The notes below the pieces were generated by a model. The model was given only the letters and a program-made list of their open reading frames with translations. It ran no database searches and was not told the origin of the DNA. The position numbers were made by a program, and so were the translations under genes. A stretch of 64,000 bases of DNA, taken from assembly GCA_018389105.1 (NCBI GenBank), contig JACATO010002730.1, positions 1,160,501 through 1,224,500 of the forward strand, given 5' to 3'. Origin of the DNA: Nautilus pompilius. Taxonomy: Eukaryota; Mollusca; Cephalopoda; Nautilida; Nautilidae. Position 1 is the first letter of the stretch. Every line of letters starts with the position of its first letter. Positions 7,201 to 58,448 of this stretch are shown piece by piece.

Positions 7201-8670
7201 CGGAAAGGCTATAACTCGCCAGTCACTGCATCCTGATCTTTACTATAATTCAATACACCTAATATTTTGTCTTAAATTGAATCTTTATTCGCGGTAGCCT
7301 CAATTTTCTTAGCTGTAACCAAAACTCCATCAACAAGGTAGAAATGAGGCATATGCGAGTTCCCATCATTCATTAATAAATATTGTAGAAACCCGCATAG
7401 TCATATTTTGCTAATTTTTGCTATTAAAAATTATACTAATAAGAATCAAAGATCAGAACCCGACAAGATCATTATATTTTTATGCGTAATCAAACTTAAT
7501 TTACGGAAAGCAGGTATTTGGGAAACCATTTAGAAACGAAAAAATAAAGACCGCTTCGTTTTTCAAATGAAAATAGTTATGTTTACTAAAGGACAAGGTG
7601 CATGAAGTGAATGCAAAGGGTTTCTCTTCTTCCGTAGTGAAATGAGAACATACCACTCCATTCCAAAAGGGAAGAATAACGTGGCAGTTTGGTAGGAGTT
7701 AACATTATATTAGATAGTTCAAAAACGTTAAAGTATTGAACCACTTTCTGACAGGCTTGTAACTACTTCCAAATATCGCTTTTTAAACATTTTTATAGCG
7801 CATGTAAAAGACTAAACAAGGTTGGGAAAGTCTTGACCAAGAAATAATCCGATAAACAAGGTGTCTGGATCTTTTAAAACAGCTTTCCAAATTTCAGCAG
7901 AGATGACAATATAAATAATATTTGCTTTTGTATTTAAAATACTTCCTAACACGGAGCAATCCATACATTTGCTGCAGTTAGTGGAACACTCTTTTATTGT
8001 TAAAAACGATGATTTTCGGTACTGAAAAGAATCAAATGATCGTTTATATAACATTCATATCAGTTATTTTTCCAGAGCCTTATCCATCCAGCACTGAAAT
8101 ATTGCTGCTGTGGGCGATTCCAAAGCGTAAACTGTACGCTGGAAAACTCAACAAACAGTATTTATAATTAGATATTTTTAAAATGCCTAATTAGTTCTCA
8201 TCTACTGATAAATCTAACAGAAATTAATATTCAGCAGCTAAAATCGAAAAGTCCTCTGGCGAAGAAGAAAAAAATTTGTTCACTTTCCAACACAAATTTT
8301 TGGTCATTATATAAGCTCTCTGTGTAACTGTATACGTTCATATACATTGAGAACCAACAGCAACAAGACCAGCTCATTTAATGGAATTAACAGGCCAAGA
8401 ATACAAGCATAAAACAATGTTTTATTCTTAGATATTTATAACAGATATAAATGTATATATCACTAGTGTAAGCGTGCGTAAATACAGTGACTTGTTTGCT
8501 CAAAGAAAAATGAACCTTTAAGTTATCTGTAGTTCCCATAATTCTTGAATGAAAGACAATCAAATAATTGTTTGGTGAATTTTTTTTTAAATTAATGATA
8601 CCCAGAAATTTTTATTCGAATCAACTTGCATTTTAGAGAGCAGACCATGATCTAAAACACTGGATTATTA
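4281..8670. other. AT-rich non-coding stretch
   Basis: Mostly featureless AT-rich DNA. A slightly GC-richer patch at about 4300-4600 holds a 61-codon minus-strand frame without recognisable similarity. A TATATAAG string lies at 4586-4593, but only a 14-codon frame follows it. A short CpG-rich spot occurs near 5400-5435. None of these can be called a gene. Confidence 0.6.
8668..8670. repeat. Target-site duplication (left), TTA
   Basis: TTA immediately precedes the left CACTGG terminus and is repeated directly after the right terminus. A 3-bp match has an appreciable chance probability, but it sits exactly at the boundary of a perfect 13-bp inverted repeat. Confidence 0.65.
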
Positions 8671-8683
8671 CACTGGTCAACAA
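8671..8683 (+). repeat. Left terminal inverted repeat
   Basis: CACTGGTCAACAA is identical to the reverse complement of 10539-10551. Similarity fades into AT-rich sequence after the 13th base. Confidence 0.8.
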
Positions 8684-8911
8684 GTATTTATCATCAAGCA
8701 TATGTCAAGGTGTACTTAGTGTAGTTTTTAATTCTGATTTCAAATATACAATTAGTTTTTGACATCACGTGCAGTTTTAAAGATGAGAAAGATTTTTGGT
8801 TTTAGCTCATGCATTATATAGAAATTCCAATTAATGACGTGTATGCATGTATTTCTTTTACATCATGGAAACATACCTTAAAATAAACTACATTATTCAT
8901 TGCTGCATAGT

Positions 8912-9034
8912 TCAGATGCAATATTTCATCATCTTAAATTAACCAATCAAGTTTTGTCTGATGAAATAGGTATTTCAACATCTCAAATTGTCCAGTCATA
9001 ATTGTTCTGATGAAATATTTCATCATCTCAAATT
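8912..9034 (+). repeat. Three imperfect tandem copies in the transposon leader
   Basis: A block of the form TCTGATGAAATATTTCATCA followed by TCTCAAATT occurs three times, starting near 8912, 8956 and 9005 at 44-49 bp spacing. The core is itself partly palindromic (GATGAAATATTTCATC). It lies between the left terminal repeat and the first ATG of the broken transposase gene. Confidence 0.7.
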
Positions 9035-9089
9035 CAATATAAGTATAACCGTTTGTATCTATTTCCTTACTTGTTTTACAGTGTTAACA

Positions 9090-10250
9090 ATGTCAAGACA
9101 GTGTAGAAATCCTCCTGATGTGTTTTGTTATGTCTGTGGACAATTTATTGTGAAAGCTAAAAAAACGTAAATAACATCAGAGATCAAGAAGATTTATAAG
9201 CTATACTTTGACTGTCCTTTTGTAGATCAGGACAAGTTATGGGCACCATATTTTATCTGCTCAGCTTGCTCAAATGGCTTACGTGACTGGTTCAATAAGA
9301 GGAAGAAGTACATGCCTTTTGCCATTAACCCTAACTCTACAGAGTTGCGTTTGTTTATTGACTCTTCAAAACGAAGTTTGAAAGCTGTACTTCTCCATAA
9401 TGGTAATTTGAAGCCCTCCATTCCTATTGCACACTCCGTTCATCTTCATGAAACATATGAGAATATGGAACTTTTATTCCATGCCATTGCCTATGAAAGA
9501 TACTCATGGAAAATAAGTGGAGATTTAAAAGTTATTGGAATGTTAATGGGAATACAGTCAGGTTTCACAAAATTCTGTTGTTTCTTGTGTCTATGGGATA
9601 GTCGGGCAACTGACAGACATTATTCGGAATCAAACTGGCAGACAAGAACATCATACCAGTCAGGACTGTCTAGCGTCAAGAATACACCTCTTGTAGATCC
9701 ATGTCATTTCCTATTGCCTCCTTTGCACATAAAGCTTGGACTGAAGAAACAGTTTTTAAAGACACTAGGGAAGAGAAATGCCAGAGGGTTTGAGTGTATT
9801 GTAGAAAAGTTTCCCAAAATCACACAGGCGAAGTTGAAAGAAGGTATCTTTGTCGGACCCCAAATTAGAGAAGTACTCAAAGATGTCAACTTCAAGGCAA
9901 TACTGGATGAACTGGAACCGCCTGCCTGGAATGCCTTCATTTAGATCTGTGAGAAATTCTTGGGCAACAAGAAGGCAATGGACTACAAGGATGGCATCAA
10001 GAATCTTCTGAATGTTACTCAGCAATGGGTTGTCGCATGTCACTGTAAGTTCACTTCTTGGACTCCCATCTGGATTTCTTCGCAGATAACCTTGGAGCAG
10101 TGTCTGATGAACATGGTGAAAGATTTCACCAGGACATTAGTGCTATGGAGAAACGGTACCAAGGCTTCTGGCTGACTACTGCTGGACACTCTACCGTGAT
10201 CAACCAGATCAGGAACACCGCAGGAAATCCAAATCACAATGTTTTTAACT
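9090..10250 (+). pseudogene. Broken transposase-like gene (orphan zinc-finger/DDE family)
   Basis: The likely start at 9090 opens MSRQCRNPPDVFCYVCGQF, a Cys-rich N-terminus. TAA at 9168-9170 interrupts the frame, which continues in register through a second CxxC (FICSAC) into the main block at 9312-9944. Numbered from codon 9312, that block has LRLFIDSSKR (Asp17), SGDLKV (Asp71), CFLC (Cys90/Cys93) and PPLHIKLG (His129). TAG at 9942-9944 is followed by the same frame to about 10030, then a frameshift and a TAA at 10046-10048. The new frame carries VSDEHGERFHQD, with Glu at 10118-10120. Asp-Asp-Glu plus CxxC and a His fits an RNase H-fold transposase. From memory, homologues are multicopy in aphids, Hydra and molluscs and have a longer segment between the Cys-rich part and FIDSSKR, so an internal deletion near 9320 is likely. 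The function assignment is inference; the gene is clearly non-functional. Confidence 0.75.
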
Positions 10251-10334
10251 CTGTTGTTCTAACTTTTTCTGTTTTGTCTGACCCATTTTTTGTGTATTCA
10301 CTCTTTGTAGAATGATAGTGATGATTTTTAACTC

Positions 10335-10340
10335 AATAAA
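10335..10340 (+). promoter_or_regulatory. AATAAA polyadenylation signal
   Basis: A consensus hexamer about 85 bp downstream of the last recognisable transposase codons and inside the element. It plausibly served the transposase transcript. Confidence 0.4.
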
Positions 10341-10538
10341 CTCTTTTACTTTCTAAAAATAATATGTCCTTATTTATTACGTTAATGATTTCATATATAC
10401 AAATATGTAAATATTTGCATGTATCTACTGAAAAACTGATACGTGCTGCATACAAATGGAGTGAAATTTTGAAATCAGCACGAAAAATTAGTCTAAAAAA
10501 GTTGGTTTGCATTCACAATGAGTATAATACATTTAATT

Positions 10539-10551
10539 TTGTTGACCAGTG
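10539..10551 (-). repeat. Right terminal inverted repeat
   Basis: TTGTTGACCAGTG is the exact reverse complement of 8671-8683 and is followed directly by TTA. Confidence 0.8.
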
Positions 10552-10950
10552 TTATTTATCTATGTAAAGACTATTAATAAATGGATAACTTTTGTCATTT
10601 CATGATATCTGCAATGTTAGCTTCAGTTAAACTGAACTGTTCCCTTGTATAGGTTCAAGATTGTTTGAATAAGCGCTCAGTTTATCCAAAGTCCACAGCA
10701 AAAGTTTTTGCTGCCTGCTAAAGACGTGATGAAGAAAGTTACTCTGTTTCCCCTAATAAAAATTGTTGGGTTACCTTTGTGAAAACAATCAGATTTCATC
10801 TGTATTTCTTCAATATCGAAAGCTGAGGAATCCATACTTATGTCTAATTTCCAAGCTCAGAAAAGGGGGAAAAAATTCAGCTACTTTTGAGTGAAATTAT
10901 TGGCAAGATTATGAAAAAAGCAAGGCCGAATAGGCTGGACCATAGAGGAG

Positions 10951-14200: not shown

Positions 14201-15748
14201 AAGCAGCTATGCTCCTAAATGTCATCCAAGGGTTACCGAAAAAGAAAAATATATATATCTCTTATTACGGCAACCACACTGATCGTACTCAAACAAATGT
14301 CAAATCCTGATTGAAGAAAAGGGAGTGTCATTTCTGGTAAGTCCCTATAAGTAACTCCCATTGTTAAGCATAGTAGAAAATCCACAATGCCGACAGAGGA
14401 ACAAAACCGCGAGAAGAAAGCATGCTAGAGAAGTAAGTTCAACTGGGGTGTTTCTGATGTGGATTCTTTTTCGGACCTCAGCTTTTGAAATATACTAGTT
14501 CAATCACCAACTCGCCGCCAAAAATTACATTGCATATACTATAAACTATAAATGTAAACTCAACAAAGAGGTAATTAATCAAGCATAAACAAAAATATTT
14601 TAAAGAATAATATTTTGTTGTACATTAAAAAAATAAGCTGTATACATACATGTATGGATTTTCTAAAAGTGATATGTTTATACCGTATATTTAGATATGT
14701 CAACTAGAAGCACTAACAAATTGCATATATACGGTAAATAGAAATTTCGTTATGAAGTCCACAATTATGACCGCTTGAATAATAATGCATAAAAATAAAA
14801 CTAAAATCTTGTGGCTGATAATAAGAATAAATAGTTATATTTAATTGTCTCCATTTATCTCTTTTGTCTGTACTGCCATTATAAAATGTTTTAATGATAG
14901 AACGTTTAGGTTCTTTTTATTCTTTATTATAGCTTAATGACTGACAGATGCATTGTCTTTTTTCCCATTTTTACATAAACTATGTGCATTCTCTTCGATT
15001 GCTAATTACTGAAAATAGATTTCAAGCAGAGAAAAAAATAGAAAAACAACGATAAAGCTGTCCCTTTGTGGCTGAGAGTTTTCTTCAAACGTCTTTAACC
15101 AAAATCGACCAAAACAGCGATTATTCAGCAAGTGCAAAATTAGTTATTTTATTTGCAAGGATAGTGCATGATCCACACTTAAAAATTCATTAACAATATT
15201 CATTTTTCAATTTTTAAAGTATTTACATGTACCTACTGTTATCAATTAATAAAAGAGGAGAAAGCGAAAATAGCAACTGCCCAGAGTTGGAACACATATA
15301 TGTCAACACGAATAAACATTGTCGAAATCATAAATATTTGCATTTAAATTCATTTGGCACCTTAGAAGTTGTTTGTTAATATATCCAGAATTTATTGCCG
15401 ACATATATTTTTATTCCTTCTTTTCACTCAAAATTCGGCGAATTCACCAGATAATTCATTAAATCGAAAATATTTGATATGTCGCTGATTTTAGAATTTG
15501 TTATCGAGATAAGCTAAATATGAAGATGTTGACACTATTCTCCCATCGCATAAGTTATTCATGGTCGTGTTCGATTATGTTCTGTATATCTTTAGTTTTA
15601 AGGCAGAATTACAAGATGTAAGCACAACAATGCCTGCGTGGCGTGGTGTCGGAAGGCCTCTTCTCGTAAATTATTTAATCCTTTGGGTGGCACAGATTCA
15701 GGCCTTAGAGAATTGGGATTGCAATAATACTCCACATAACGTCTTTAC
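11280..15748. other. Gene-poor AT-rich stretch
   Basis: No supported gene. A 65-codon plus-strand frame at 12147-12344 and the moderately complex sequence at 13800-14450 show no recognisable protein. Around 14385-14430 the string CGAGAAGAAAGCATGCTAG weakly resembles the dispersed repeat described at 18924 and 34694. An alternating purine-pyrimidine run is listed separately. Confidence 0.6.
12751..12766. repeat. (TG)(CG)n alternating purine-pyrimidine run
   Basis: TGTGTGCGCGCGCGCG is perfectly alternating and CpG-rich within AT-rich flanks. Such runs can adopt Z-DNA. Confidence 0.85.
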
Positions 15749-15750
15749 TA

Positions 15751-15783
15751 TTAGGGTGCTACAAACGTTTTGTCGTTTTTCAA
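15751..15783 (+). repeat. Left mariner terminal inverted repeat
   Basis: It starts TTAGGGTGCTACAAACG and pairs imperfectly with the right end. It is preceded by TA. Confidence 0.8.
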
Positions 15784-15829
15784 CCGCAACAATGTGAGTT
15801 CAAATTTTTTCTGAACATGAAGTTTATCA

Positions 15830-16825
15830 ATTAAAGTAAGTTCCATTACAGTCAATACACTTATGCCAACGATTTACAAGCGCATTGATACCATTTTGAA
15901 AAATATCTGGATTTCTGGAGTCGATAAAATGTTGGAAGGCAGTTTCCATTCCTGCTTGGATGGAGAGGTGTTTGAAAAGGTGGTAGTCTGTGGGAGAAGG
16001 GTCTGGTTAATACGCTGGTTGATGGAGAACTTCGTACGTCAAAGTGTTCAGTTTCTAAAGAGTCAGCTTTGCGACATGAGAACAAGCATTGTCGTGGAGC
16101 AGGATTGAGCCTCTTAGATTCACCGATTCCGGATGTCGTTGGGAGAGTTTCTGATGAACAACGTTTAATTCACAACAGTAACTTTTAACTGTGATGGTTT
16201 CGCCAGGTTTCAAGAATTTTAGAGTGGATGGCACCAGTTGCAGTCCACCAGAAAGTGATCATGAACATCTTTGGTGAAGGCCGGTTTTTGGAATATGGTT
16301 AGCAGACTTGTCTCTGTCGAGCCCCTTTGCTGATCATTTTCTGTTGTCCTTAAAGATCAATTTTCCATCACAGGTAATGATTTTGATCAATAAAATGGTC
16401 GTTTCTGTTTCTTATGACAAGCGGAGAGCAGATATTGAATCGTCGATTTTGGTTTTTTATTCATCTGGTGAAGCACCTACTTTTCAAGCATTTTCACCTT
16501 GCCGATTGCGTGAAGATGCGGGGAAACAGTTGCTGTGCTAACGTCAAGCTCTCCAGGAATTTCTCGCACTGTTTTTATTGGATCAGTTTCAACTCAGGCT
16601 TCAGACGGTCGTCATCACAGAAGGACATTCGTTACACTACTAATCTTCTAGACTCACATCTCCAGATCGAAACTTTGGAAACCATCGTTTAACTGTTCGC
16701 TCATTTGCTGTGTTCGCGCCCCATGCTTGCTGAATGTTACGAGTTTCCCCGATCGCTTTTTGGCCTTGATTGAACTCGTGAAGCAAATTGGCAAAAAAAA
16801 TTTTTTTTCTATCCATACTTCACTC
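15830..16825 (-). pseudogene. Mariner transposase relic (DD34D type)
   Basis: Minus-strand translation in shifting frames matches mariner transposase from end to end. In order it shows NERTVKRWFPKFRSGDVSLED, the second helix-turn-helix (VREIPGELDVSTATV...HAIGKVKML), WTATGAIHSKILE, the second catalytic Asp in SILLHDNACSH (near 16086-16108), PDPSPTDYHLFKHL for the third Asp region, and a C-terminus NRWHKCIDCNGTYF. Several in-frame stops are present, for example after SLED, after VAKLTL and before PDPSPTD, along with multiple frameshifts. The gene cannot make a protein. The degree of decay suggests an old insertion. Confidence 0.85.
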
Positions 16826-30261: not shown

Positions 30262-30266
30262 ATATA

Positions 30267-30309
<43 letters not shown>

Positions 30310-30318
30310 TATAATAAC

Positions 30319-30374
<56 letters not shown>

Positions 30375-43734: not shown

Positions 43735-43783
<49 letters not shown>

Positions 43784-43799
43784 ACTACTAATAATAATA

Positions 43800-43843
<44 letters not shown>

Positions 43844-43867
43844 TAATAATAATAATAATAATAATAA

Positions 43868-43907
<40 letters not shown>

Positions 43908-43960
43908 TAATAATAATAATAATTTAATAATAAATAATAATAATAATAATAATAATAGTA
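43733..43960. repeat. Compound (ACC)(ACT)n-(TAA)n microsatellite
   Basis: A short ACC run passes into ACT units and then a long TAA array with a few phase slips. Translation of the minus strand gives only poly-Tyr/Ile/Leu, which is not a gene. Confidence 0.97.

Positions 43961-49142: not shown

Positions 49143-50709
<1,567 letters not shown>

Positions 50710-57339: not shown

Positions 57340-58448
<1,109 letters not shown>

Follow-up and report, generated by a model that had tools for sequence, protein, structure and literature searches.

A probable Chapaev3 transposon, dead and internally deleted, in the Nautilus pompilius genome

The element and its broken gene

The DNA examined here is a stretch of 64,000 nucleotides from Nautilus pompilius (assembly GCA_018389105.1, contig JACATO010002730.1, positions 1,160,501 to 1,224,500 of the forward strand), hereafter the window, with an overall G+C content of 31%. 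Near its left side, a perfect 13-bp inverted repeat (CACTGGTCAACAA, at 8671–8683 and 10539–10551) encloses a single broken gene, and TTA stands outside both ends (8668–8670 and 10552–10554). The original prediction, made from the letters alone, had reported the repeat, its flanks and the broken gene, and all were found as described. It had further proposed that the gene is the transposase of the element, which is supported by ends shared among copies, 3-bp target site duplications and a predicted fold like that of Transib and RAG1. We conclude, with a probability of roughly 0.93, that a Chapaev3 DNA transposon of the CMC group lies here, in a copy that is dead and carries an internal deletion.

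The gene was read by alignment with a longer copy, L067, which has an uninterrupted frame of 554 amino acids (aa) within a 2,294-bp element. In the window copy, the frame of the ATG at 9090 meets stops at 9168–9170 (TAA) and 9942–9944 (TAG) and then shifts, the C-terminal part being read from 10049. The motifs FIDSSKR, SGDLKV, CxxC, PPLH and GERFHQD, named by the original prediction, are all present. The L067 protein carries the motif set described for Chapaev3: D254, D308, C327–C330, H376 of PPLH, HFLDSH from residue 485, and E507. Its N-terminal region contains CYVC, CSAC, CYFC and PVPH; matches to zf-AD are weak and below cut-off. The features of the window copy are as follows.

8668–8670, no strand: target site duplication on the left, TTA, with A before it; the same A-TWA pattern is seen in other copies
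8671–8683, plus: left terminal inverted repeat, CACTGGTCAACAA
8716–8744, plus: left arm of a subterminal inverted repeat, 29 nt, 79% complementary to 10468–10496
8910–9034, no strand: 49-bp unit in 2.7 tandem copies, in the 5′ leader of the element
9090–9944, plus: first part of the broken transposase gene, in the frame of ATG 9090, aligned with the open 554-aa copy L067
9327–9338, no strand: internal deletion junction, filled with AACCCTAACTCT; about 498 bp are absent relative to L067
9360–9362, plus: Asp of FIDSSKR, proposed as the first catalytic residue (D254 in L067)
9522–9524, plus: Asp of GDLKV, proposed as the second catalytic residue (D308 in L067)
9579–9590, plus: C(2)C motif, CFLC
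9717–9728, plus: LH motif, PPLH
10049–10315, plus: C-terminal portion of the gene, read in a shifted frame and diverging from the L067 protein after YQGFW
10052–10069, plus: H(4)H motif, HFLDSH
10118–10120, plus: Glu of GERFHQD, proposed as catalytic (E507 in L067)
10468–10496, minus: right arm of the subterminal inverted repeat, 29 nt, pairing with 8716–8744
10539–10551, minus: right terminal inverted repeat
10552–10554, no strand: target site duplication on the right, TTA, with T after it

Copies, target sites and the internal deletion

Taken alone, the 13-mer of the window is within chance: it has three matches at two or fewer mismatches in the window, a number reached in 17 of 100 shuffles. 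The window also holds 27 perfect inverted 13-mer pairs at 0.5- to 4-kb spacing (overlapping ones counted separately), and matching 3-bp flanks accompany two of these, the 8671/10539 element and a pair at 15097/16454. The inverted repeat is placed beyond chance by the genome-wide counts of its end pattern and by other copies that stop at the same ends. Across the assembly searched (727,640,739 bases), ATWACACTGGTCAACAA occurs exactly 867 + 855 times and the same pattern reversed 0 + 0 times. A search with the element DNA, in which the best 40 of 1,148 first-look candidates were scored, gave at least 59 matching pieces at 89 to 98% identity, self match aside; a search with the protein gave at least 180 matches (148 scored of 6,164 candidates). 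The gene is therefore highly multicopy, not the single-copy gene that the original prediction had named as evidence against itself. The two 400-bp flanks of the window copy had no match beyond themselves, which indicates that the repeated part begins and ends at the terminal repeats.

The window copy was compared with 39 other places from the DNA search, fetched with their flanks. Using the terminal 25 bp of the window element with up to seven mismatches, both ends were located in 37 of the 39 (all but L021 and L038), making 38 copies with the window. Of these 38, 34 have the exact 13-mer on the left, 29 on the right and 26 on both sides, and the ends have the CAC..GTG form of Chapaev3. Identical 3-bp flanks were present in 24 of the 38 (14 TTA, 9 TAA and 1 TAG; expectation, approximately 2.3% per copy), so that CACTG ends with a 3-bp duplication, as the original prediction had anticipated, are common to most of the copies in which both ends were located. 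The layout A-TWA/TWA-T (the slash standing for the element), which is the target feature reported for Chapaev3, was found in 22 of these 24, and no copy agreed over 4 bp. Because L011 and L013 share flanks and represent one duplicated locus, the independent counts are 23 of 37 loci with identical 3-bp flanks and 21 of 37 with A-TWA/TWA-T. These two copies lie on one contig, about 18 kb apart, with identical 10-nt flanks on both sides, and a segment containing the transposon was probably duplicated there.

Among the ATWACACTGGTCAACAA places listed, a hand count gave 20 facing end pairs approximately 1.3 to 2.4 kb apart. TTA or TAA agreed across 16 of them (chance, 10 of 20, since ATWA is fixed by the pattern). 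Ten of the 20 are spaced 1.3 to 1.4 kb (e.g., C26:696614–697980 and C59:171639–172986) and look like a further, shorter, nonautonomous size class.

All 21 short copies compared, including the window, miss approximately positions 564 to 1063 of the L067 element, with breakpoints within about 11 bp of one another, which indicates one deletion copied many times. The window copy thereby lacks about 166 codons present in longer copies, and the loss is in frame. Majority frames run to 391 aa for the short class and to 554 aa for ten longer copies. AACCCTAACCCT is contained in 16 of the 21, and different deletions are found in other copies (L040 to L047). Telomere-like AACCCT units, roughly one to four per copy, fill the deletion junction (e.g., L009, L011, L018, L022 and L024).

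Copies diverge from their own majority by 0.6 to 2.8%. Private changes in the 21 short copies (203 nonsynonymous, 72 synonymous and 12 stop versus 198, 72 and 17 at random expectation) and in the ten longer copies (157, 55 and 8 versus 152, 56 and 12) match random expectation in both classes, indicating that the copies drifted neutrally. Selection on the shortened frame was tested for, and none was found.

Relation to Chapaev3 and other transposases

Chapaev3 elements, as described in PMC4079192, have CAC..GTG ends, an Asp-Asp-Glu (DDE) transposase with C(2)C, LH and H(4)H motifs, and internally deleted derivatives, and all elements that its authors examined show a TWA duplication between A and T. 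The Nautilus element resembles Merrow, Garfield and Conan of that account in its ends, target, motifs, DDE residues and deleted derivatives. Its size is also close: L067, at 2,294 bp and 554 aa, stands near Garfield_BM (2,289 bp, 556 aa) and Merrow_PM (2,451 bp, 562 aa), other members, such as Conan_ET (1,865 bp, 461 aa), being shorter (PMC4079192, Table 1). L067 has one exon, unlike Merrow and Garfield, for which the same source gives two exons with a first exon of 75 to 78 aa; most other Chapaev3 elements are described there as having one. The placement in CMC made by the original prediction is thus supported, since the element fits the features of Chapaev3, whereas its description of the branch as poorly described does not, Chapaev3 having been published (PMC4079192). 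The element is most probably a further member of this already described branch, and the findings on it include no new kind of system. Elsewhere, Chapaev3 is treated as a sublineage of Chapaev (PMC12730594), is grouped with Transib, RAG1 and Chapaev and credited with a Chapa zinc finger (PMC4411706, which also cites a 2008 Repbase report on it), and is recorded as fragments in a fly (PMC3630058).

The original prediction had suggested examining whether a structure model would bring the acidic residues into an RNase H fold. When the predicted catalytic domain was realigned with VIA-align 2, HzTransib (6pqx) and RAG1 came out as its best structural matches, over approximately 306 to 321 residues at 10 to 14% identity. 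The models thus point, at the level of fold, to an RNase H-like catalytic core related to that of Transib and RAG1. Transib and RAG give 5-bp target duplications, unlike the 3-bp duplication seen here: 24 of the 38 copies have flanks that agree over 3 bp, and 3 of the 38 have flanks that agree over 5 bp. The comparison offers independent, modest support for placing Chapaev3 together with Transib and RAG1, as has been published.

The original prediction had described such proteins as usually called uncharacterized; in sequence searches, the protein had no family above cut-off in Pfam, NCBIfam or PDB sequences. Scans of viral_contigs and genome_contigs gave no relative, two pattern loci in genome_contigs (L078 and L079) having only weak similarity (best E values, 0.014 and 0.008), and tblastn against phages and plasmids at E values up to 1 gave none. 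Literature searches found no paper containing six short motif strings of the protein and none on a Chapaev transposase as an uncharacterized mollusc protein. A protein nameless in Pfam and NCBIfam gains an identity from the Chapaev3 assignment, and similar proteins could be labeled likely Chapaev3 transposases.

Could the element belong instead to another CMC/Transib branch, such as animal EnSpm/CACTA, Mirage, classical Chapaev or Transib? Transib and RAG1 are the nearest solved folds to the predicted catalytic domain, and C(2)C and H(3-4)H motifs, mostly 5′-CA..TG-3′ ends and duplications of 2 to 5 bp are given as common to the CMCT clade (PMC12730594). EnSpm/CACTA is alike in its DDE residues with C(2)C and H(3-4)H, its CAC..GTG ends and its 3-bp duplications (PMC12730594); no EnSpm transposase match above cut-off was found in Pfam, an absence that does not exclude EnSpm. 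The branches are moreover set apart here by description rather than by direct comparison with reference sequences. What separates them is the combination reported for Chapaev3 (PMC4079192) and matched here, namely, the A-TWA/TWA-T target, the C(2)C, LH and H(4)H motifs, a 2.3-kb element and a 556-aa protein; the TWA target between A and T in particular is unlike EnSpm/CACTA and other CMC elements. We therefore judge another branch to be improbable. A host gene or gene family carried inside an unrelated repeat, its protein not being a transposase, is far less credible still. It would fit a protein with no family above cut-off in Pfam or NCBIfam and a broken window copy, but families that share about 50% identity code for one kind of protein; families B and C (described below), where the end is clear, show CACWGG..AACAA after ATWA; the protein is predicted to fold like a DDE transposase; and private changes are neutral.

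Several observations weigh against the assignment to Chapaev3. It was made from the published description rather than from reference proteins or a tree. Among the copies, 14 of 38 have no identical 3-bp flanks, three agree over 5 bp instead, and the end finder, being based on the window, would miss copies with other ends. The 24-base 5′ end pattern is exact at only two places in the genome, of which one is the window. The flank comparisons yielded no clean empty site: the left flank of L090 matched only itself, and the joined-flank comparison for L089 was uninformative because this copy is inserted in a CTA/TTA trinucleotide array, whose period is indistinguishable from a 3-bp duplication. On the structural side, the mean predicted local distance difference test (pLDDT) score was 58 and 71 for the two models, with about 50 to 64 around E507, less than 50 around C(2)C and low confidence in the N-terminal region. 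Foldseek alone was weak (RAG1 E value of 0.0075 with the first model), and with the second model, of the catalytic domain alone, neither RAG1 nor Transib was among the 50 matches listed; these two ranked first only after VIA-align 2 realignment, where some RAG1 and HzTransib conformers scored only 11.1 to 11.7, equal to the P element. A family profile searched against PDB sequences found neither RAG1 nor Transib. Finally, L067, the bearer of the open frame, has no matching flanks, and L087 has Asn at the first His of H(4)H; these two facts slightly lower our confidence.

Sister families, mobility and other observations

Further families in the same genome, which we labeled B to F (members L080 to L090), are 46 to 51% identical to the L067 protein. 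Both Asp residues, C(2)C, LH, H(4)H and Glu are kept across the aligned family proteins, as far as their frames extend, apart from the Asn of L087. Family B ends in CACTGGTCAACAAATTT, with flanks ATTA/TTAT in L089 and L090, and family C ends in CACAGGGTAACAA or CACTGGGTAACAA, preceded by ATAA or ATTA. No end was found in the fetched stretch of L083, L086 or L088, and L087 has only a two-mismatch candidate. The transposase gene of family D, seen in L086 (minus strand) and in L088, is split by a candidate GT..AG intron of 94 bp at about residues 67 to 68 of L067, near the length of exon 1 in Merrow and Garfield (75 to 78 aa; PMC4079192); other joins fit too.

Family B looks very recently mobile, in a recent burst. 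By hand count, one common score recurs in 96 of 150 listed rows, and all eight 594-bp segments fetched were identical (L080, L084, L089, L090 and L091 to L094). Four family B copies were retrieved together with their flanks, and three of them (L084, L089 and L090) have in common an internal deletion of approximately 760 bp relative to L080. A 572-aa frame occurs in 2 of the 96 equal-score rows (C131 and C643). With its open frames and very recent burst, this genome would lend itself to work on a relative of the RAG recombinase.

A mechanism may be outlined from these data. The 554-aa protein would be an active transposase, whose N-terminal Cys/His-rich region would bind the terminal and subterminal repeats and whose D254/D308/E507 triad would cut both element ends. 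The cut ends would be joined to a TWA target with a 3-bp stagger, and repair would make the duplication. The window lineage would have lost its approximately 166 codons in frame, and the short form would then have spread, most simply by the transposase of longer copies in trans; each short copy would afterwards have drifted without selection. The window copy itself is dead and was probably moved in trans. A bolder and improbable proposal, prompted by the identical family B segments, is that Chapaev3 is still jumping here, that spreading lineages keep a frame for the catalytic core and lose much or all of the N-terminal region, and that the shortened proteins repress or regulate the longer enzyme in trans. 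Because no selection on the shortened frame was found, the in-frame deletion is the sole observation that points to repression.

The other perfect 13-bp pair of the window whose 3-bp flanks match, AACCAAAATCGAC at 15097–16454, either marks a second element or is due to chance. Elsewhere in the window, long arrays of trinucleotides (mostly TAA/AAT) lie at 30264–30374, 43744–43957, 49145–49340 and 57340–57540.
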